From the NCBI GenBank assembly GCA_023954815.1, contig JAGSHB010000058.1, forward strand, positions 1 to 32,289: a stretch of 32,289 nucleotides of DNA. Reading direction: 5' to 3'. Source of the DNA: Myxococcales bacterium (GTDB lineage Bacteria; Myxococcota_A; UBA9042). Positions 17,407-30,471 of this stretch are shown one piece after another. The translations under genes and the position numbers were made by a program. How positions within the stretch are numbered: position 1 is the first letter of the stretch; every line of letters starts with the position of its first letter. The notes under the pieces were generated by a model. It searched no databases, was not told where the DNA came from, and worked only from the letters and a program-made list of their open reading frames with translations.

Positions 17407-18060
17407 ATGGGTTTCCGTAGGTCCCGCGGTCGGGAAGACAATGAGCGCAGCCGCGAGCCGCGCGTCAACCACCGCATTCGGGTGCCCGAGGTTCGCCTCG
17501 TGGGTCTCGAAGCAGAGCAGCTCGGAATCGTACCTGTGGAGGAGGCCATGCGCCTCGCCCAGGAGGCTGGCGTCGATCTCGTCGAGGTCGCCCCAACCGC
17601 TCGCCCACCTGTTTGCCGGATCATGGACTACGGCAAGTTCAAGTACCTGCAGAAAAAGCGGGCACAAGAAGCCAAGCGTAGTTCGACCCACATCGAGGTG
17701 AAAGAGGTCAAGTTTCGTCCCAAGACGGAGCGCCATGACTTCGAGACCAAGATGAACCGCGCGCGTCGCTTTCTCGGCGACAACAACCGCGTCAAGGTCA
17801 CGATCATGTTCCGTGGTCGCGAGATGGCCTACACGGATGCACAGCGCAAGCGTCTGCTGGAGATCTCACAGCAGTTGAGCGACATCGCCATCCTGGATGT
17901 ACATCCGAAGATGGAAGGTCGCACGATGAGCATGATGCTCAACCCGAAAAAGGGTGGAGCAGCGAAAGAGAAGAACACCGATAAGAGCCCCGAGAAAGCG
18001 CGCGCCGCTGCCCCGGAGCAGAACAAGACCCAGGTGACCCATAAGGGTCGCCAGAGCTGA
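17407..18060 (+). CDS. infC: Translation initiation factor IF-3
   Basis: A 217-residue factor that binds the 30S subunit, keeps it apart from 50S and checks the start codon. The N domain begins [14 protein letters not shown] and has [14 protein letters not shown]; the linker is KKRAQEAKR; the C domain has [16 protein letters not shown] and [13 protein letters not shown] lysine-rich tail of about 35 residues ([20 protein letters not shown]) exceeds the E. coli length of 180, as in many deltaproteobacteria. The start is an ordinary ATG, not the rare AUU used for autocontrol in E. coli; GAGAGG lies about 11 nt before it. It is followed 10 nt later by rpmI. Confidence 0.97.
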
Positions 18061-18070
18061 GGCAAGACCG

Positions 18071-18268
18071 ATGCCGAAAATGAAAACACGCCGCGGTGCG
18101 GCAAAGCGTTTCTCCATCCGCAAGAGCGGTAAGATCAAGCGGGCGAGCGCCTACCGCCGCCACTTGCTTGAGCACAAGCGCCGGAAGATGAAGCGTCACC
18201 TTCGTGGCAGCGACACGGTGGACTCGACCAACGAGAGCGCCATCCGTCGCATGATGCCGTACGGCTGA
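18071..18268 (+). CDS. rpmI: 50S ribosomal protein bL35
   Basis: A 65-residue basic ribosomal protein with the family's start [14 protein letters not shown] and the later [15 protein letters not shown]. Length and sequence are typical. GAGG lies 8 nt before the ATG, and the gene begins 10 nt after infC, as in the conserved infC-rpmI-rplT operon. Confidence 0.98.
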
Positions 18269-18277
18269 GCCAAGGCA

Positions 18278-18326
18278 CTGCTTCGGCAGCGAACATATCC
18301 GAGACAACAGACAGATTTTGTCTCGG
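18278..18326 (+). promoter_or_regulatory. Two hairpins in the rpmI-rplT spacer, possible L20 control site
   Basis: CTGC-TTCG-GCAG (18278-18289) is a short stem with the very stable UUCG tetraloop. It is followed by a perfect 9-bp stem CCGAGACAA/TTGTCTCGG with a 10-nt loop (18299-18326), ending 26 nt before rplT. L20 represses its own operon in E. coli by binding structured mRNA; these hairpins could play that role here, or simply slow decay. Neither has a terminator-like T run. Confidence 0.4.
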
Positions 18327-18351
18327 TAGCTAGAGATAAGAGGAGGCAGCT

Positions 18352-18711
18352 ATGCCGCGCGTAAAGACAGGGTTCAAAGGACGTCGTCGTCACAAGAAGT
18401 TCCTGAAGATGGCCAAGGGAATGCGGGGCGCTCGTTCGCGTCTGTACCGCACCGCTCGCGAGCAGGTGCTGCGCGGTCTGAAGATCGCCTACAAAGAGCG
18501 TCGTCGCAAGAAGCGCGCCTTCCGCGCCCTCTGGATCGCTCGGATCAATGCAGCGACCCGTGGTCTCGGTGGCAAGTACTCCGTGTTCGCCGGCTGGCTG
18601 AACAAGACGGACATCGAGCTCGACCGCAAGGTCCTCGCTGAGATGGCCCTCAAAGATCCGGCAGCTTTCCAGGCTGTCTACGAGCAAGCGAAGGCACAGG
18701 CCGCGGCCTAA
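18352..18711 (+). CDS. rplT: 50S ribosomal protein bL20
   Basis: A 119-residue ribosomal protein needed for early 50S assembly. The start MPRVKTGFKGRRRHKKFLKM and later RKKRAFRALWIARINAA are family signatures; length is typical. A consensus AGGAGG precedes the ATG. In many bacteria pheS and pheT follow; here an IHF gene starts 27 nt after the stop. Confidence 0.98.
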   Translation: MPRVKTGFKGRRRHKKFLKMAKGMRGARSRLYRTAREQVLRGLKIAYKERRRKKRAFRALWIARINAATRGLGGKYSVFAGWLNKTDIELDRKVLAEMALKDPAAFQAVYEQAKAQAAA

Positions 18712-18738
18712 GCCCCACAATCACGATAGGAGAACGTC

Positions 18739-19017
18739 ATGACCAAGGCTGATATCGTCGAGTCGGTGTACGACAAGCTGGGTGGATTCTCGAAGCGCGA
18801 AGCCGCTGAGATCGTCGAGCTGGTCTTCGAGACCCTCAAAGAGACCCTCTCAGAAGGCGAGAAAGTGAAAATCTCGGGCTTCGGTAACTTCGTCGTTCGC
18901 GAGAAGAAGTCGCGCATGGGTCGCAACCCGCAGACGGACGAGCCGATCCTGATCTCGGCTCGGAAGGTCCTGACCTTCAAGCCGTCGCAGGTGCTCAAGC
19001 AGCAGCTCAACGGCTAA
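18739..19017 (+). CDS. ihfA: Integration host factor alpha-like DNA-bending protein
   Basis: A 92-residue HU/IHF-family protein that binds the minor groove and bends DNA. The sequence MTKADIVESVYDKLGGFSKR, then VKISGFGNFVVREK and the DNA-inserting arm with RMGRNPQTDEPI and ISARKVLTFKPSQVLK, is closer to IHF-alpha than to HU. HU usually reads RNPQTGE; the D at that point is a small departure. GGAGAA lies 7 nt before the ATG. Last gene before a strong terminator, in the position ihfA holds at the end of the E. coli infC-rplT-pheST-ihfA array. Confidence 0.93.
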   Translation: MTKADIVESVYDKLGGFSKREAAEIVELVFETLKETLSEGEKVKISGFGNFVVREKKSRMGRNPQTDEPILISARKVLTFKPSQVLKQQLNG

Positions 19018-19176: not shown

Positions 19177-21123
19177 ATGAATACCCAGCCTCCCCCGCTC
19201 GAACTTCCCAACAAGGTCTACTTTCGCATCGGCGAGGTCGCCAAGCTACTGGCCGTTAAAACCCACGTCGTGCGGTTCTGGCAGCAGCAGTTTTCGTCGG
19301 TGCGACCCGAGCGATCGAAGACGGGCCGGTTCCTCTACACCAAGACGACTGTCGAGCGTCTCCACCTGATCAAGCACCTGCTCTACAACGAGGGGTACAC
19401 GATCAACGGTGCGCGAAAAGCCCTCAAATCCGGTCCCAAAGCCACGGGTACGTCCACCACACCCAAGGCCAAAGCAGCAAGCAGCGCGCCTACCCCCCCA
19501 GAGCCCGACGTAGCGAAGGCGGACAACGGCGTATCCGATGCTAGGCAGGCCGAGATCGAGGGGCTGCACGCCCAGGTTGACTCGCTGCGGCTGCGGGCAG
19601 CGGAAGTTGAGTCCTTGCGGGTCCAGGTCGCGGAGATGGAGGAGTTGCGCACGCAGGTCGGTGAGATCAGTGCCTTACGCGACGCGCTCGCAGAAGCGCG
19701 AGCCTCGGCCGATGCCGCAAACAGTGGCCACGAGGAAGGCGTCGACTTGCAGACAGCTGTGGCCGGAGCGACACAGCGCGCCGATGAGCTGGCAGCGTCA
19801 CTGGCAACGACGAAGGCCGCTCTGAATCAAGCGGAGCAGGCCCGCGCGGACACCATCAAGCGCGCCGCACGGGAGCTGAAGCGCACCAGTGAACGCGCCG
19901 ACGCCGCTGATGCCACTGTTGCCTCGTTGACGGAAGAACTGAGCGCGGCAAAGGCGAGCGCGGCAAAAGCCGAGGCCAACCTCCAGGCGCTGCGCCAGGC
20001 AGCCGATGCTCGGACAGCCGGGGAAGCCTCCAGTGCTGCGGAGACGGACGAACGACTGGCAGAGCTCGCTGGCTCGCTGGCAGAGGCGCGGCAACACGCG
20101 GACGCGGCTGATAAACGAACGGCCGCCATTGAGGCGAAGCTTGCGCGTGCCAACAAGCTCGCTGAAGGCGCAGCGCTCAAGGCCAAGGCGAGTAAGAACG
20201 ACCTGAAGGCCGCCTACAATGACGTCAAGGCTGCCAATGATGGACTGAAGGCTGCCTACGACGAATCCATGGCGGCCAAGGCGCAACTGCAGGCGCGTGA
20301 GACGAAGCAGGCAGCGGCACATGAGGCGCTGCAGACTGCGCACGCCAAGTTGCAATCAGAGCGCGCGGCCGATCAAGTCAAGATTGAGCAACTCACCGCG
20401 CAGACAGACGAGCTCTCGGCAGCCAACGCCCGCCTCACAGACGAAAGCGATGCGCTCAAACGCGAGGCTGAACGCCTGACGGCGTCGAACCTCTCCCTGG
20501 CCGACAACGTCGAGAAGTTGCAGGGCACTATCGCTGACCTGACAGCTGAACGAGGCGCATTTCAGGGCGCGAATGAAGAGTTGCAGACCGCCAATGAGTC
20601 GCTCTTGGAACAGCAAACCACCGCCACGTTGCGGGCAAGTGACCTCGCGGCGGACAACGACCGACTAAAGGCAGCGCAGGCGCAATTGGAGAGTCAGGCG
20701 GCCGCCGCAGAGGCAACCATGGTCACGCTGACTGCGGCCCATGAGGAGCTGAAGTCTGGCGCGAGTGCCTTGCGTGATGACAACGGCGCGCTACAGACCC
20801 AACTGGACGAACAACGCGCCGCCAACGAGGCGCAACGCAAGCGAACCGATAGCGAAGCCGATCGCGCGACACTCGCGGAGTCGAGCCTTGCCGACGCGAA
20901 CGCTGCGCTTGAGCAGTTGCGGGTTGCGACGGAGTCCGGCGGGGTGAACATTGTCGATTTGGAAGCCGAATTGCGTGACGCTGTGCGGCAACTTGAGGAT
21001 CTACAACTGGCCCTCGCCGATGCCGAAAGCGCTGAAGTACAGGCGGTTGGTCGAGCGGCTGTGCTGGAGTCGAGTTTGCGCGAAACCCTTGGTGAACTAA
21101 GGGTTTGGGCGACAGCCAACTAG
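19177..21123 (+). CDS. MerR-family DNA-binding protein with a giant coiled-coil tail
   Basis: A 648-residue protein. Residues 10-80 are a MerR winged helix-turn-helix: KVYFRIGEVAKLLAVKTHVV, RFWQQQF and TINGARKAL. This type of MerR regulator follows ihfA in many deltaproteobacteria but is normally short (about 110-250 residues). After a Ala/Pro/Lys linker (to about residue 125), some 500 residues are almost unbroken alpha-helical coiled coil rich in Ala, Glu, Gln and Leu (for instance LRVQVAEMEELRTQVGEIS and NDLKAAYNDVKAANDGLKAA, visible internal repeats). No membrane or ligand-binding domain is seen. It could be a DNA-bound scaffold or nucleoid protein rather than a metal sensor (inference). 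No strong promoter; a short spacer after the terminator. Confidence 0.85.
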   Translation: MNTQPPPLELPNKVYFRIGEVAKLLAVKTHVVRFWQQQFSSVRPERSKTGRFLYTKTTVERLHLIKHLLYNEGYTINGARKALKSGPKATGTSTTPKAKAASSAPTPPEPDVAKADNGVSDARQAEIEGLHAQVDSLRLRAAEVESLRVQVAEMEELRTQVGEISALRDALAEARASADAANSGHEEGVDLQTAVAGATQRADELAASLATTKAALNQAEQARADTIKRAARELKRTSERADAADATVASLTEELSAAKASAAKAEANLQALRQAADARTAGEASSAAETDERLAELAGSLAEARQHADAADKRTAAIEAKLARANKLAEGAALKAKASKNDLKAAYNDVKAANDGLKAAYDESMAAKAQLQARETKQAAAHEALQTAHAKLQSERAADQVKIEQLTAQTDELSAANARLTDESDALKREAERLTASNLSLADNVEKLQGTIADLTAERGAFQGANEELQTANESLLEQQTTATLRASDLAADNDRLKAAQAQLESQAAAAEATMVTLTAAHEELKSGASALRDDNGALQTQLDEQRAANEAQRKRTDSEADRATLAESSLADANAALEQLRVATESGGVNIVDLEAELRDAVRQLEDLQLALADAESAEVQAVGRAAVLESSLRETLGELRVWATAN

Positions 21124-21189: not shown

Positions 21190-21394
21190 GAATTTATAGC
21201 AGTCTAAGCTGTTGTTGCATGAAGCTCTTGCGTCGCTCTATCCGGACCACAATTGACGGCGCCCGCCCCTGGTGACGAGACGGGGGCTGTGCTATGCGAA
21301 TCGGCCCGATTGGCGGCCTGTGAAGTCGTGGCCGGGGACGCTGCGACACACGGATACGCAGCACTGGTCAATCGCCCCTTGGAGACCCCTGCAG

Positions 21395-22105
21395 ATGGAT
21401 GACACACAGCTGCTGCTTGAGACCGCTGAGGATCTCGATGGACCGCCCAAGGTCGAAGATGAGTTGCTCGCGCGCCGCGCTGAGGAGATCTGCGCCCACC
21501 TGCTGATCCGTCGCTACCTGCCCAAGAAGAGCTGCCGTGACCTGCTGCTGGACGACGAGCTGCGCGATAGCGTGCGCCGCCGGCTCTCTGGTGTGGGTCT
21601 CGAACTTGTCGATAGCTACACCTCTGACCACTTTGCCGTTCGGCTGGCGCCGCATATCGAAAGTGATGTGCGCTTCGACTGGGCGACCAACACCCGCCTG
21701 CCACGCGGTGCCCTCGCCCTGTTGGTGATCTTGTGGTCGAAGCTGGTGCTGCCGCGCCGGGTGGCCGGTGACGAAGCCCGGCGTAAGCGCCTGGAGCAGG
21801 CCGATGGTGACGGCGAAGCGATTGTGCCACCGGTGCTGCCCCGACCGACTGTAGCGCGTGCGGCCCTGTACGCCGAGTTCGGTCACCGCTTCGGCAAAAC
21901 GTCGTTTACCCGGTACGTTGGCCAACTCAAGAACGCCGGCTTCATCACCGAGAGTCGCGCCGGCGACCTGCGAGAGGGACCGCTACTCGATCTGCTCATC
22001 GACGGCGTTCAAATGGCTCGAAAACTCCGGGATTCTGTGCTCTGGGACCTCTTGGACAGCCAACAGGCGCAAGCCGCGGACGATGGCTATGGGGAGGAAG
22101 GCTGA
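21395..22105 (+). CDS. KITE/MukE-JetB-like winged-helix subunit of an SMC complex
   Basis: A 236-residue protein. After an acidic N-terminal helix (ETAEDLDGPPKVEDELLARR) it has a helical region with RRRLSGVGLELVDSYTSDHF, then RGALALLVILWSKLVL, a linker, and a second winged-helix-like stretch (YAEFGHRFGKTSFTRYVG, ending LKNAGFI). This order resembles DUF4194/JetB and MukE, the tandem winged-helix (KITE) subunits of MukBEF-type and Wadjet condensins. Its stop overlaps the SMC-like start by one nucleotide (TGATG), which strongly supports a stoichiometric complex. The ATG at 21395 is preferred over an upstream GTG; GGAG lies about 10 nt before it. The family call is by pattern and context. Confidence 0.7.
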   Translation: MDDTQLLLETAEDLDGPPKVEDELLARRAEEICAHLLIRRYLPKKSCRDLLLDDELRDSVRRRLSGVGLELVDSYTSDHFAVRLAPHIESDVRFDWATNTRLPRGALALLVILWSKLVLPRRVAGDEARRKRLEQADGDGEAIVPPVLPRPTVARAALYAEFGHRFGKTSFTRYVGQLKNAGFITESRAGDLREGPLLDLLIDGVQMARKLRDSVLWDLLDSQQAQAADDGYGEEG

Positions 22106-24921
22106 TGTTCACCTTTCGCGCCGTTGAGGTGATGAATTGGGACTACTGGTCGCACGTGCGCTTGCCGCTCGACGACCGCGTGGTGCTCGTCGCGGGCCCC
22201 AATGGCTCCGGCAAGACGACCCTGCTCGATGCCATTCGTGTGCTGCTCAACGCCACCCGTCTGTCGACCTCGCGCAAGCTGCCGCAATACCTGCGGGAAG
22301 ATACAGGCGTCGCGGTTATCAAGGCCTTGGTCGACAATCCACCCACCCACGCTGGCAGGCGCCCGTGGAGCCATCTCGGTCGCTTTGAGGATGAGGTGAC
22401 GCTCGCGTGCGTGCTGGAACGCAAGAAGGGCAAGTGGGAGCGCCGGTACCTCGTCGTGGGCGGCGATGCGCCGATCGAGACGCTGAAGGACTTGAGCGGC
22501 TCGCTGCGGCCGATGGAATTCTCGCGCGAGCTGGAGCTGGCGCAGGTGCCCCGAACGCTGCTCAAGATCCTGGCACTTGAGCAGGGTGAGACCCACAAGC
22601 TCGCACGGCGTACCCCGGTGCAGCTGCTTGAGTACGTGCTGGAAATGCAGGGTGACAAGGCCGTCTTGGAGCGCTACGGCGAGGCCCGCGCGACCTTTCT
22701 CAGCGGCCAGCGCGACCTCGAAGGCTTCGAGCAGCGGTTGACCGTGATGCGCCTCCACGTCGACACCCTGCGGCGCGATGCGGAGAGCTATGAGCGCTTC
22801 GTACAACTCAAGGATTCCGAGCAGGAAGTACGGGAAGAACGGCTGCCGGCAGCGCGTTTCAAGGCGCTGACCGATCAGCTCGCGACCCTGAAGGTCGAAC
22901 GGGAGCGTGCGCAACGCACCCTGGCCGAAGCAGACGGCGTGCTCAGTGGATTTCACCGAGAGAGCGATGGTCTGGGCAAGGGCGTCGAGGAGATCAAAGC
23001 GTCCATCGTCGAGAAAAAGCAGGCCTACCAGACGCTGCTGAAGGACAAGGAAAAGCTCGATAGCAGCTACCGCGATCTTAAGCGCTGGGTGCAGGAATTT
23101 GAGGATTCGGGCGGTAGCGCTGACCAAAAAGATGTGCACAAGCTCATCGACGAGCGCGAACGACTCATGACCGCTGAGGGTGGTATCCGCGGCGAACTCA
23201 CAAGCCTCCTCGGCAAGATTGGCAAGCTGCGCCGCGAGCGGGAGAGCCTCAGCACCGGAGATAGCCGTCGTCGGCCTCCAGACTGGGTGCAGCGCATGGT
23301 TCGCGAGCTGCGCGGGATGGACATTCCGCACTCGCTGGTCGCTGACATGGTCGAGATCACCGACGACCACTGGCACGTCGCAGTCGAGTCCATCTTGGGT
23401 CGCGAGCGGTTCACCATCTTGGTCGACAGAGAGCATACGCTGCCGGCACGAAAGCTGGCACAACGGCAGCGCTATCGTTGTTATGTGTCGGAGTACGGGC
23501 CGAGAACCCGGGCTAAGCCGCGGCGTGGCTCAGCCCTGGATGTGGTGCGCTTTTCCGATCCACGCGTGCCTGAAAACGTCACCCGTATGCTCAACAGCGT
23601 GACGCTGGTGGAGACGGTCGAAGACGGCCACGGTCTCGGTCGTGGCAGCATCACCATCACCCCCGACGGCTACAAGCAGGACGCCCGTGGCGGCATCTTC
23701 GTGGGTACCCAAGATCTCTACTGCGGCTCGGGTGCGGGCGAACATCGGACGCACCAGATCGACGGCGAATTGGGCCAGTTGCGCAGCCGCAGGGACGAGC
23801 TGCAACGCTCCTTGCAGCCCACAAATGCGCGGGTGCGGGTCATCGATGAGCAACTCGCAGCCGCCAAGGCGCGCGGGCGTCTACTCGATCGCCTGGGCGA
23901 CCCGGAGAGCCTGAAGGAGCGCCTCGCCGATCTATCGGAGAAGCGGCGCGCGGCCAGCGAGCGGCTCATGGCCTTGCTCGGTGAGGTCGACGACGCCAAC
24001 AACCAACTCATCGACAAAGAGCGCCGGATCTCGCTGTTGGAGTACCGCCATCGCGAGGCACTGCTAGAGCGCGATCGGGCACGTAGCAGCGCGGCGACAG
24101 TGGACTCGCGGATTTCGCGGGTCACGACGGATCTGGTCGAGGTCGAAAAACGCGTTCCTGAGGCCCTGCGCGGCCCAGCGGCGCTGGAGCTTCTGGAGTC
24201 CGAGGTGGTGCTCGTCGAGCGCCTCAACAGCTTGCGTCGCCGCGTCGAGGGCTGGACAGGTACCCGAGACGCGCGCGCTGTGGCGCTTTGGCAGAAGAGT
24301 CACGCTGAGTTGGTCGATCACGACAGGCAGTTGGCCCGCAGGCGGCATGAGCTCGACGAGTCGACCGACGAGTTGACCCAAGCGCGGCGGGCCTATGTGC
24401 GCGTTGTCGAGGAGACCATTCGCCGTTACCGCCGCAATGTGCTGGCCTTGGGCGAGCTGTGCCGGGTCGAAGTCGACGTGCACGTGCCGGGCGCTGACCA
24501 GCTCCACGCTGAGGGCGACGCCCTGCTCGGTCGTGCGGGTCTCGAGGTGCGCGTCGGTTTCGATGGCAAGCGGCCCGTGCCCGTCAACGACAGCCGGCTA
24601 TCTGGCGGCCAGTCCGTGGTCGCGTCGCTCATCCTGCTGATGGCCCTGACCATGAATGACGACGGCCAGACCGCTGGTTTCTTCATCCTGGACGAGCCCT
24701 TTGCCCACCTGTCCATCGAGCGCATCGACGAGGTCGCCCGCTTCCTAGAAGTGACCCGCGCGCAGTTCCTCATCACCACGCCGACGACCCACAATCTGCG
24801 GGTCTACAACCCCGCAGGTTTGACGCTGAATCTGCGCAAAAAGGCCGGAACTGCGCGGTTTGCGCCCGTACCCACCTTCTTGCGTCGCATCCGTACCGAA
24901 CTACCTCAGGTCGCGAACTAA
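22105..24921 (+). CDS. SMC-like ATPase (MksB/JetC-type)
   Basis: A 938-residue chromosome-structure-type ATPase. The N-terminal ATP-binding lobe has Walker A GPNGSGKT (31-38) and a Q-loop-like LEQGETHKL. Two long coiled-coil arms (about 170-390 and 545-770) flank a globular hinge (about 393-545; DIPHSLVADMVEITDDHWHV is like JetC/SMC hinges). The C-terminal lobe has the signature LSGGQ (832-836), Walker B FFILDEP (Asp863, Glu864) and LITTPTTHN as the D/H-loop region. All ATPase motifs are intact. At 938 residues it is much shorter than SMC or MukB and near MksB. A strong GGAGGAAGG site precedes the ATG. SbcC/RecN are less likely: no zinc hook, and a true hinge is present. It may compact DNA or act in plasmid/phage defence; no kleisin is adjacent. 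Confidence 0.88.
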   Translation: MFTFRAVEVMNWDYWSHVRLPLDDRVVLVAGPNGSGKTTLLDAIRVLLNATRLSTSRKLPQYLREDTGVAVIKALVDNPPTHAGRRPWSHLGRFEDEVTLACVLERKKGKWERRYLVVGGDAPIETLKDLSGSLRPMEFSRELELAQVPRTLLKILALEQGETHKLARRTPVQLLEYVLEMQGDKAVLERYGEARATFLSGQRDLEGFEQRLTVMRLHVDTLRRDAESYERFVQLKDSEQEVREERLPAARFKALTDQLATLKVERERAQRTLAEADGVLSGFHRESDGLGKGVEEIKASIVEKKQAYQTLLKDKEKLDSSYRDLKRWVQEFEDSGGSADQKDVHKLIDERERLMTAEGGIRGELTSLLGKIGKLRRERESLSTGDSRRRPPDWVQRMVRELRGMDIPHSLVADMVEITDDHWHVAVESILGRERFTILVDREHTLPARKLAQRQRYRCYVSEYGPRTRAKPRRGSALDVVRFSDPRVPENVTRMLNSVTLVETVEDGHGLGRGSITITPDGYKQDARGGIFVGTQDLYCGSGAGEHRTHQIDGELGQLRSRRDELQRSLQPTNARVRVIDEQLAAAKARGRLLDRLGDPESLKERLADLSEKRRAASERLMALLGEVDDANNQLIDKERRISLLEYRHREALLERDRARSSAATVDSRISRVTTDLVEVEKRVPEALRGPAALELLESEVVLVERLNSLRRRVEGWTGTRDARAVALWQKSHAELVDHDRQLARRRHELDESTDELTQARRAYVRVVEETIRRYRRNVLALGELCRVEVDVHVPGADQLHAEGDALLGRAGLEVRVGFDGKRPVPVNDSRLSGGQSVVASLILLMALTMNDDGQTAGFFILDEPFAHLSIERIDEVARFLEVTRAQFLITTPTTHNLRVYNPAGLTLNLRKKAGTARFAPVPTFLRRIRTELPQVAN

Positions 24922-26841: not shown

Positions 26842-28194
26842 CTAGCCCGCGCCTGCCACCGTCAGCTGATCGACCGCAAAACTGGGCGCAGAGATGCCGC
26901 GCCAGGGGTCGACGTCGTTGGCGCGGGCGCTGATCCCTTGAACCAGCTGATCGAAATTGCCAGCGACCGTGACTTCATTGACCGGGAACTGAATCTCGCC
27001 GTCCTCAAACCACAGCCCTGTCGCGCCCTGAGAGTAGGTGCCCGTGATCAGATCCGTGCCGTGACCCATGGTTGCGGTCACCAGCAGCCCAGTGCCGATC
27101 TCCCGCAATAGAGCGGCCAAATCATCGTCGCCCGGCGCCATATGCAGATGGGTAGAGGCCACGCCCGGCGCGCTACCCACGCTGCGGCTGGCAGAGCGCG
27201 TGTGTCCACAGCCAATACGTGAGGCGGTGCGCAAATTGGTGAGATAGGTCTTGAGTACACCGGCCTCGACCACGGTTGTGCGCTGGCTGGAAAACCCTTC
27301 GCCATCGAACGAGCGGGAGCGCAGCCCCCAAGGCACCAGCGGGTCGTCGATGAGCGTCAACGAGGGATGCATCACGGCGGTGCCGAGGCGATCGCAGAGG
27401 TAGCTGGCGCCGCGTGCCACCCGCGCACCCGACAATCCCGAGATGAAATCGCCCAAGACCCGGCTCGCAACCGGTCCCTCGAAGACCACGGGCACGCTGC
27501 GGGTCGTGATCGGCCGGCCTCCCAGGCGCCGGAGTGCGCGCGTCGCCGCCTTTTCGCCGATGGATTCGGGGGTTGGCATCAAGTCCAAGCTTCTGCGGGT
27601 GTCGGCCCACCAGTCCACTTGCATCTCGCCGTCACGCTCGGCGATCGGTACCGCGCTGACGCTGACCGTGCTCCCTTTACGGGTACGGATGGCGCCGCCC
27701 ATGGAGACCCAGGCCACCGCGCTCTCGCCGGCGCTGGCATCGGCCCCCTCGGTGTTTGTGATCTGGCTGTCGGCGTCCCGTGCGGCTTGTTCGGCCCGTT
27801 GCGCCCAGTCGATGAGCGCTGTGGTTCCGAGCTTGGCGACGGCTGGGTCGTGTCGTTGGACGACCGTCGGCTCTCCGAGTTCGTCCCCCTTGGGTACGCG
27901 ACTGTGCGGATCGGCATCCATCTGACGAGCTGCAGCGACGGCGTGCTCTACCAAAGCCACCAACGCCTCTCTGCGCAGATCGTTGCCGCTGACCATGGCC
28001 GAGCGATCGCCGACAAAGACGCGGAATCCGACCGCGTGCTCTTCAGCGCGCACGACTTGCTCGACCTCCCCAAGACGCACGCGTGCATCGCTGGAGACCT
28101 GGGCGACGGCCACTGCATCGCCATCCGTGGCGCCAGCGCGCTTGGCGACGGCCAGCAGGTCAGACAGAAGATTCGGGTCGATTGGGCTGAGCAT
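26842..28194 (-). CDS. pmbA: TldE/PmbA metalloprotease partner subunit
   Basis: A 450-residue member of the TldD/PmbA family and the non-catalytic-looking half of the TldD-TldE protease, which in E. coli processes microcin B17 and CcdA and otherwise acts on unfolded peptides. Visible hallmarks are the N-terminal VAVAQVSSDARVRLGEVEQV, GFRVFVGDRSAMVSGNDL, SRSFDGEGFSSQRTTVVEAG, TYLTNLRTASRIGCGHTRSA, and the C-terminal GTDLITGTYSQGATGLWFED, with GNFDQLVQGI close to the end. It lacks the HExxxH motif seen in tldD. GAGGG lies 7 nt before the ATG at 28194. It follows tldD by 110 nt, a gap that holds a strong dyad. Confidence 0.95.
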   Translation of the reverse strand: MLSPIDPNLLSDLLAVAKRAGATDGDAVAVAQVSSDARVRLGEVEQVVRAEEHAVGFRVFVGDRSAMVSGNDLRREALVALVEHAVAAARQMDADPHSRVPKGDELGEPTVVQRHDPAVAKLGTTALIDWAQRAEQAARDADSQITNTEGADASAGESAVAWVSMGGAIRTRKGSTVSVSAVPIAERDGEMQVDWWADTRRSLDLMPTPESIGEKAATRALRRLGGRPITTRSVPVVFEGPVASRVLGDFISGLSGARVARGASYLCDRLGTAVMHPSLTLIDDPLVPWGLRSRSFDGEGFSSQRTTVVEAGVLKTYLTNLRTASRIGCGHTRSASRSVGSAPGVASTHLHMAPGDDDLAALLREIGTGLLVTATMGHGTDLITGTYSQGATGLWFEDGEIQFPVNEVTVAGNFDQLVQGISARANDVDPWRGISAPSFAVDQLTVAGAG

Positions 28195-28304: not shown

Positions 28305-29738
28305 CTACGCGACCTGACTGCCGCCGATGGTCATCTGATCGATTCGAAGGGTCGGCTGACCGACGCCGACGGGGACACTCTGCCCCTCCTTGCCGCACAC
28401 ACCCTGGGCCTTTTGAAAGCCGAGGTCATGACCCACAGCGGAGACCCGCGTCAGCACGTCCGGACCGTTGCCGATGAGCGTCGCGCCCTTGAGCGGCGCG
28501 CCGATCTTGCCGTCCTCGATGAGGTAGGCCTCGGTCATCTCAAAAACGAACTTGCCGCTGGTGATGTCGACCTGACCGCCGCCAAAGTCGACCGCCATGA
28601 TGCCTTTGTTGACGCCCCGCACGATCTCTTCGGGATCGTCCTGCCCGGGCAATAGGTAGGTATTGCGCATGCGCGGCATGGGCAGATGTGCGTAGGACTC
28701 CCGGCGGCCGTTGCCGGTAGGAGAGACGCCCATGAGGTGGGCACCGAGCAGGTCGTGCATGTAGCCCACGAGCTTGCCATCTTGGATGAGGGTGGTGTTC
28801 TGCCCCGGCGTCCCTTCATCGTCGACGTTGAGCGCGCCGCGGTCGCCGATGCGTGTGCCGTCATCGACGACGGTGCACAGCTCACTGGCCACCTGCTGCC
28901 CCATCTTGCCCGCGAACGCGCTGGTGCCTTTCCGGTTGAAGTCACCCTCCAGACCGTGACCGATCGCCTCGTGTAGCAGCACCGCTGGCCAGCCTGGCCC
29001 GAGCACCACGTCCATGACGCCGGCGGGCACCTCGATCGCCTGAAGATTGACCAACGCCTGCCGCACCGCCTCCTGGCCTGTGGCCCGCAGCGCTGCTGGC
29101 GTCAGCAGGGGCTGTAACTCCATCCGACCACCGCCGCGGAAAGAGCCGCGCGCGAGCCGACCGTCGGCGCCCTTGGCGATGACCGAGCAGTCCAGCCGAA
29201 CCAGCGGGCGTGTATCCCACACCGCGGAACCATCCCCACGAACGACGCACACGATCTGTTCGGAGACGGAGATCTGCGCCGTCACCTGATGCACCCGCGG
29301 ATCGGCTGCCCGGCACATCGCATCGAGCTCGGCCAAGGCGCTGACTTTCACGTCGAGGGGCAACGCCATGGGCGGCCGGGCTATCGGGTAGCGATTTACC
29401 GGTTGACCACCCGCGCTGACCGCGATGGTCGTCCGCTTGCCATGACCCGTCGCAATCGCGCCACATGCATCGGCGGCCTGCAGCAGAGACGGCACTGTCA
29501 GCACGTCGGTGTGCGCATAACCCTGCCGCTCGCCCGCAATGGCACGGACACCAATGCCCTGCCCCGACGAGCGCTGCGCGGTGCGGACTTTGCCGTCGTC
29601 GACCGCCACCCACTCACTCTGACTCTGTTCGAAAAAGAGGTCGGCGTAGTCTGCGCCACCGGCCAGCGCGCGACTGACAACGCTCGTCAGGTCGGACAGC
29701 TGCAGGTTCGCCCTTTGAAGGATGCTGTGATCAGCCAT
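28305..29738 (-). CDS. tldD: TldD metalloprotease subunit
   Basis: A 477-residue catalytic subunit of the TldD-TldE protease. The zinc motif is HEAIGH (His256, Glu257, His261), followed by GLEGDFNRKGTSAF as in the family. Other marks are VDDGTRIGDRGALNVDDEGT, FVFEMTEAYLIEDGKIGAPL and the C-terminal QPTLRIDQMTIGG. The ATG at 29738 overlaps the trmH stop by 8 nt; an N-terminal extension to 29834 lies within trmH and is not needed. The product starts MADHSILQRANLQLSDLTSV. Co-transcription with trmH is expected, and probably with tldE. Confidence 0.96.
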   Translation of the reverse strand: MADHSILQRANLQLSDLTSVVSRALAGGADYADLFFEQSQSEWVAVDDGKVRTAQRSSGQGIGVRAIAGERQGYAHTDVLTVPSLLQAADACGAIATGHGKRTTIAVSAGGQPVNRYPIARPPMALPLDVKVSALAELDAMCRAADPRVHQVTAQISVSEQIVCVVRGDGSAVWDTRPLVRLDCSVIAKGADGRLARGSFRGGGRMELQPLLTPAALRATGQEAVRQALVNLQAIEVPAGVMDVVLGPGWPAVLLHEAIGHGLEGDFNRKGTSAFAGKMGQQVASELCTVVDDGTRIGDRGALNVDDEGTPGQNTTLIQDGKLVGYMHDLLGAHLMGVSPTGNGRRESYAHLPMPRMRNTYLLPGQDDPEEIVRGVNKGIMAVDFGGGQVDITSGKFVFEMTEAYLIEDGKIGAPLKGATLIGNGPDVLTRVSAVGHDLGFQKAQGVCGKEGQSVPVGVGQPTLRIDQMTIGGSQVA

Positions 29739-30471
29739 TGGATTGCCCCCGTGCCTGTTGCTGCTGGATACGTTTTTGCTGGTCGCGTTTTTGCTCGTAC
29801 GCCGACCGGATTTTGCCGGCCTCGCGCATGCCAAACTCCAACCACCGCTGACGCAGACTCCACTGGCGCTCTACCGACAAATCGCCCATATCTCCAAGCT
29901 GTTTGCGCCGAACCGGCACCACTTGTTGCAGGCTGATGGCCAGCGCGACAGACAGGTTGAAGCTCTGCACCATGCCGCTCATGGGCAGGATGTAGCGCTG
30001 ATCGGCCGCCTGCCGAATCGCTTCGCTCACCCCGTTGGCTTCATTGCCGACGACGAGCGCGATTTTGCCCTCCACCGGCAGCTCCGCCAGGGGTTTTTCC
30101 GCCGCCAGGTCCGAGACCCAAATCTGAAAGCCCTCAGCCTTCAAGTGGGCGATGCATGCGTCCGTGGTGTCCCAACGGTGGGCGGTCATCCACTGGTCGG
30201 CGCTCTTGGTGATCGTCGTCGGCGTCCGATACTCCTCGGTCTCGGTCACCACGTGGACGTCTTGCAGGCCAAACCCCTCACTGGTGCGCATGCAGGCCGC
30301 GACGTTGTGGGGATCGTAGATATTTTCGTAAACCGCAGTAATCGACTGCAGTCGCTGGCCCAGAATGTGGTCGATGCGCTGCACCCGCCGCGGGTTGACC
30401 ACGTCTTCCAGCACGTCCGTCTCGGGCCATCTCGACTGGCCATCGGGCCGCAGGGCTCCGTTCTCTGTCAT
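29731..30471 (-). CDS. trmH: tRNA (guanosine(18)-2'-O)-methyltransferase
   Basis: A 246-residue SPOUT methyltransferase that modifies G18 in the tRNA D loop using SAM. Motif 1 is NIYDPHNVAACMRTSEGFG (with the catalytic Arg), motif 2 LVVGNEANGVS and motif 3 LPMSGMVQSFNLSVALAISL forms the knotted SAM site. The C-terminal tail is basic and Gln-rich (KRDQQKRIQQQQARGQ), as in other TrmH proteins that contact tRNA. The ATG at 30471 is favoured over GTG 30480 because AGAGG is 8 nt upstream of it. RlmB is less likely: no extra N-terminal L30e-like domain. Confidence 0.93.
   Translation of the reverse strand: MTENGALRPDGQSRWPETDVLEDVVNPRRVQRIDHILGQRLQSITAVYENIYDPHNVAACMRTSEGFGLQDVHVVTETEEYRTPTTITKSADQWMTAHRWDTTDACIAHLKAEGFQIWVSDLAAEKPLAELPVEGKIALVVGNEANGVSEAIRQAADQRYILPMSGMVQSFNLSVALAISLQQVVPVRRKQLGDMGDLSVERQWSLRQRWLEFGMREAGKIRSAYEQKRDQQKRIQQQQARGQSNG

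Follow-up and report, generated by a model that had tools for sequence, protein, structure and literature searches.

The window, meaning the whole stretch of 32,289 nucleotides that was analyzed, contains two adjacent plus-strand genes that encode a KITE subunit and an SMC ATPase. The KITE gene (P0001, 21395..22105) encodes a JetB/MksE/MukE-like protein of 236 aa, assigned by family alignment, a structure model, Foldseek, and VIA-align. Its stop codon overlaps by one base (TGATG) the start of the gene for a JetC/MksB-like SMC protein of 938 aa (P0002, 22105..24921), assigned by Pfam, PADLOC, and motif conservation. A start at the in-frame GTG at 21272 would lengthen the KITE protein to 277 aa, and the family alignment favors the ATG at 21395. 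In the SMC protein, the Walker A motif GPNGSGKT (residues 31-38, 22195..22218), the ABC signature LSGGQ (residues 832-836, 24598..24612), and the Walker B motif FFILDEPF (residues 859-866, 24679..24702; FFILDEP is 859-865) are encoded on either side of the hinge domain (residues 410-509, 23332..23631), which is recognized by Pfam SMC_hinge with 24.9 bits against a cut-off of 22.5. The glycines, lysine, and threonine of Walker A, the entire LSGGQ signature, and the F, F, D, E, P, and F of Walker B are invariant among 10 relatives. The pair is retained at 56-88% identity across nearly all genomes of the window's family, which is far from chance.

Pfam SMC_N matches the 938-aa protein with an E-value of 1.4e-16, which also exceeds the Pfam threshold, and its top match in the PADLOC search is JetC1 at 118.7 bits, compared with 60 bits for the LmuB (Lamassu) models. 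The canonical SMC equivalog TIGR02168 scores 82 bits, below its cut-off of 567, and the MukB N-terminal domain PF04310 scores 14.4 bits (E 0.031), below its cut-off of 23. A Rad50/SbcC identity was rejected: the protein has an SMC hinge and KITE and kleisin partners, and the SbcC of the same genome is another gene (L161). For the KITE protein, sequence searches of Pfam, NCBIfam, and PADLOC gave no match, and those of PDB sequences gave none that was credible. Its AlphaFold model is a tandem winged-helix protein (pLDDT 76.9), for which Foldseek returned JetB (8as8_C, 9e-6; 8dk1_F, 8e-5), followed by MukE, Nse1/3, and ScpB, the two best solved structures being the JetB proteins of the Escherichia coli and Pseudomonas aeruginosa Wadjet systems. 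VIA-align likewise gave Z-scores of 12.3 and 11.4 for JetB and 9.1 for the next best match; at Z 12.3, 172 residues were aligned with an rmsd of 3.8. The identification of the two subunits therefore holds, because the ATPase possesses the motifs and the hinge and the model of its partner is JetB-like.

Upstream of the pair is a conserved infC-rplT-ihfA block (17407..19017, plus strand), which lies outside the complex; rplT and ihfA are present in 17 of 17 family loci and infC in 15, the remaining two loci ending at contig edges. Between this block and the pair, at 19177-21123, is a gene for a MerR-family regulator of 648 aa with a coiled-coil tail of approximately 560 residues. In many relatives the MerR counterpart upstream of the pair appears much shorter (approximately 190-320 aa by simple ORF calling). 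Downstream of the SMC gene is a TPR gene, and a PmbA/TldD-type metallopeptidase pair of ordinary character is found on the minus strand at 26842-28194 and 28305-29834. A parS-like site was sought within the window and none was found. The sequence-only reading of this stretch had described the ATPase with its Walker A, hinge, coiled-coil arms, LSGGQ, and FFILDEP, the overlapping 236-residue winged-helix protein as a KITE partner, and the MerR coiled-coil and TPR genes on either side, and all of these descriptions are borne out by the coordinates, the Pfam and 10-relative alignments, the tandem winged-helix model, and the first place of JetB in both structure comparisons. It had also reported that neither a kleisin gene nor a nuclease gene flanks the pair, and neither was found in the window: a kleisin profile (A4), run against all 374 frames of at least 50 aa, gave a best E-value of 1.7. 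The MerR coiled-coil protein was considered as a substitute kleisin and rejected, as only its MerR domain was recognized and the kleisin profile did not match it.

Relatives of the pair were gathered from 284 genomes of the phylum, and a scan of the whole collection found five close loci. In two sister families (G143, G201, G162), a gene encoding 431-474 aa abuts or overlaps the KITE gene, forming a single three-gene operon in the order kleisin-KITE-SMC. The kleisin profile was built from these G143, G201, and G162 proteins, and it detected one strong full-length homolog in 20 of the 22 genomes of the window's family, including the window's own (G000). There, the kleisin is a single gene encoding 448 aa on the minus strand of a contig other than that of the pair (G000:C104:6556-7899; profile E 1.5e-110), so that the three genes do not form one operon. 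The kleisin gene is apart from the KITE-SMC pair in all complete family loci that were read. It is next to mevalonate-pathway genes in the window's genome and, within the family, near these and other household genes. In G026 its neighbor, at a distance of a few hundred bases, is a RecN-like gene (L087 8828-10261 is the kleisin; G026:C171:13411-14970). The kleisin locus thus varies across the family, being near the RecN-like gene in G026 and near mevalonate-pathway genes in other genera.

In the predicted structure of the kleisin, one winged helix lies toward the N terminus (residues ~60-120) and another at the C terminus, with long helices and a linker predicted at low confidence (~279-342) between them. 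Confidence in the model is modest (pLDDT 68.5, pTM 0.36), and the flexible connections between domains keep the whole-chain TM-scores low. The nine best Foldseek matches of the model are all MukF chains (MukF 8.3e-5), with JetA (9qxt and 8q72) just below. By hhalign, the kleisin profile is related to the neighboring gene of the JetD-linked relatives described below (98.0%, E 2.2e-13). The profile had no match among PDB sequences, and Pfam and PADLOC also failed to recognize the kleisin; among the library and structure searches, the KITE and the kleisin proteins were recognized by structure comparison alone. VIA-align of the kleisin was set aside as neutral evidence, since it mainly aligns its single winged helix with unrelated regulators.

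A census of the 52 genomes of the window's class found SMC and kleisin together in 23, SMC only in two, kleisin only in none, and neither in 27. The two SMC-only genomes are G186, which is 81% complete, and G119, in which the SMC gene is at a contig end; most of the genomes examined are fragmented assemblies. In 12-15 genomes of the family, tree distances of SMC and kleisin are correlated with r 0.97, even though their genes are unlinked. The partial correlation is 0.85 when IF3, L20, and IHF are controlled for and 0.84 when RecN is controlled for (Mantel p 0.0005 and 0.001, respectively). RecN was used as the rate control in place of RecF; the RecF set collected here was dropped because it showed near-zero correlation with everything and behaves as non-orthologous. 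Partial correlations for the linked KITE, which is a short protein, are weaker and inconsistent, at 0.02-0.57. The SMC-kleisin correlation supports co-evolution and is no proof of contact, because in one smaller set SMC was also correlated with RecN (partial 0.67).

The genome therefore encodes a complete SMC-KITE-kleisin set of the MksBEF/JetABC kind with an unlinked kleisin gene, as judged by the kleisin homolog at a separate locus, its MukF/JetA-like fold, co-occurrence, and correlated divergence. The sequence-only reading had proposed a reduced SMC complex, with the kleisin role fused, replaced, or encoded elsewhere. The last of these options stands (G000:C104), and a complex without a kleisin is not supported. 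That reading had also suggested looking in related genomes for conserved neighbors and a distant kleisin gene; this comparison yielded the kleisin-KITE-SMC order in the sister families and the unlinked gene in the window's family. A distant MukF/JetA-type kleisin co-evolving with the pair, which the same reading had named as evidence against itself, is what the profile search, Foldseek, and the distance correlation have found.

The JetD Toprim nuclease (PF09983) is absent from the whole genome containing the window, in agreement with the earlier observation that a nuclease gene is missing, and from 20 of the 22 family genomes; the Corynebacterium glutamicum control was positive. In one of the two family genomes with JetD, G079, JetD is beside a separate and larger JetC of 1,131 aa (L167, G079:C208), alongside the window's complex. 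A truncated JetC-like gene is present in G258 (L168, G258:C71), the sole family genome in which neither the window-type SMC nor the kleisin was detected. Among loci of the window's class, none has JetD downstream of SMC, and JetD is directly downstream of SMC in the distant phylum relatives G058, G214, G266, and G253, the last at a contig edge. In the SMC tree, a branch with 100/100 support sets the JetD-less copies apart from the JetD-linked ones; the tree is unrooted and thus compatible with either a loss of JetD or its absence from the start. No full-length copy was found on 72,556 plasmid and 50,697 phage records. Variovorax plasmids carry apparently disrupted pieces of a distant SMC relative (L197 5025-6488, L198 5152-7703) flanked by IS1071 transposases, with a 393-aa uncharacterized gene after the C-terminal SMC piece.

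The presence of Smc-ScpAB was judged by ScpB and canonical SMC profiles. ScpB was detected in 0 of 52 genomes of the window's class and in 194 of 232 genomes (84%) elsewhere in the phylum, and canonical SMC (SMC_prok_B) was likewise detected in 0 of 52, with positive controls. PF02463 was not used as evidence of SMC absence, since it returned frames of RecN or RecF size and missed even P0002. Of the four JetD-linked relatives, no fewer than three (G214, G253, and G266) retain ScpB. The 27 class genomes with neither Smc-ScpAB nor the window's complex comprise one in the window's family and 26 in nine others (f2-f4, f6, f7, f9-f12). AAA_29 matches in these genomes are SbcC where long ones were read, and others have RecN-like frame sizes. 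These 27 genomes have either a condensin too divergent for the profiles used or none. Because no relative of this complex was detected in them either, the absence of Smc-ScpAB alone is no proof of replacement, and the loss of Smc-ScpAB may predate, or be independent of, the complex.

Taken with the core, syntenic distribution of the pair, the class-wide lack of ScpB and canonical SMC makes a chromosomal role the simplest account, and we consider that this JetD-less complex of three MksBEF/JetABC-type subunits with a split kleisin gene is probably the main chromosomal condensin of the family. Of the two roles first proposed from the sequence, chromosome organization or defense, the evidence favors the former. 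We infer that the three proteins assemble and extrude loops on the chromosome. By homology with JetABC and MukBEF, two SMC proteins would dimerize at the hinge, and the kleisin would bridge their heads by contacting one SMC neck through its N-terminal winged helix and the opposite head through its C-terminal one. A pair of KITE proteins would occupy the middle of the kleisin, and ATP binding and hydrolysis would drive DNA loop extrusion. JetD, which would turn the complex into a plasmid-cleaving Wadjet, is absent, and the complex probably acts on the chromosome.

Three other explanations were weighed against this chromosomal role. The complex could serve defense, as a relative of Wadjet acting against plasmids or phages either through a different, unlinked nuclease or through DNA sequestration without cutting. 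The best PADLOC match of its SMC is JetC1, its nearest relatives outside the class have JetD directly downstream, and an unlinked effector is possible because the kleisin shows that operon partners can relocate. However, the complex is distributed as a syntenic core feature (SMC in 21 of 22 family genomes) and not patchily, and all JetD-less copies are on one side of the fully supported branch. Bona fide Wadjet genes exist separately in two of the 22 family genomes, G079 having its own JetC, and plasmid and phage records hold zero full-length copies, which leaves defense quite unlikely. SMC and KITE could also work as a machine of two subunits that has no kleisin at all, the unlinked MukF/JetA-like protein then belonging to some other complex. 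This would fit the tight two-gene unit formed by SMC and KITE in the window's family (f1), beside which a kleisin was never found in the complete loci that were read. Yet a homologous kleisin adjoins KITE and SMC in the sister families, each genome has one strong kleisin homolog that was never found without SMC and whose rates of change correlate with those of SMC, and no second KITE or SMC of the same type was found in those genomes for the kleisin to serve; we regard this explanation as highly improbable.

An accessory condensin for repair or segregation, rather than the main organizer, in cells without any Smc-ScpAB-type condensin or with a divergent, undetected one, is an unlikely reading that draws on the existence of sister families with neither system, in which AAA_29-type matches are SbcC or RecN-sized frames, and on the coexistence of MksBEF with SMC in P. 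aeruginosa (PMC4255302). Against it are the syntenic conservation in almost every genome of the family and the fact that no other SMC-type condensin was detected in those genomes.

Among known systems, the probable main condensin described here resembles MksBEF without MksG, as in P. aeruginosa, in its short-arm SMC of 938 aa, its KITE and MukF/JetA-type kleisin, its lack of a JetD/MksG nuclease, and its probable chromosomal role (PMC10586767, PMC4255302). It differs in that neither Pfam nor PADLOC recognizes the KITE or the kleisin, with NCBIfam also missing the KITE, that the kleisin gene is unlinked from KITE, and that the window's genome has no Smc-ScpAB whereas P. aeruginosa has both. With Wadjet JetABCD it shares a KITE fold nearest to JetB (Z 12.3), an SMC nearest to JetC1 (PADLOC), and four-gene relatives, more distant but of the same phylum, that carry JetD; unlike Wadjet, it is without JetD in 20 of 22 family genomes, G000 among them, and is core rather than patchy. 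MukB is approximately 1,480 aa long, so the SMC protein here is much shorter, and it falls under the cut-off of the MukB Pfam model (14.4 bits against 23). The MukF-like kleisin fold and the presumed replacement of Smc-ScpAB across a whole lineage are common to both, but the mukBEF genes form one operon (PMC4255302) and the kleisin gene here is apart. Smc-ScpAB has the same proposed role and also split loci, with smc usually apart from scpAB (PMC4255302), but here KITE stays with SMC and the kleisin is apart, the SMC reaches 82 bits against the TIGR02168 cut-off of 567, and ScpB is absent.

MukBEF apparently took the place of Smc-ScpAB, and MksBEF of P. aeruginosa is regarded as JetABCD minus JetD; an unsettled proposal derives chromosomal condensins, MukBEF and MksBEF among them, from Wadjet defense complexes through JetD loss (PMC10586767). 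Somewhat short of an even chance, in our estimation, is the broader proposition that a Wadjet-type complex minus its nuclease serves as the sole chromosome condensin in a Myxococcota class without Smc-ScpAB, which would add one more lineage to those of enterobacterial MukBEF and the JetD-less MksBEF, with the kleisin gene split from KITE in one family and some sister families maybe without any recognized condensin. Kleisin and KITE genes can be unlinked, although they adjoin in the published SMC operons consulted for comparison, and genome-context searches will therefore miss such complexes. The lineage is a candidate case for comparing JetD-linked with JetD-less relatives, the latter being in genomes without Smc-ScpAB, and the class-wide lack of Smc-ScpAB is what most deserves further attention.
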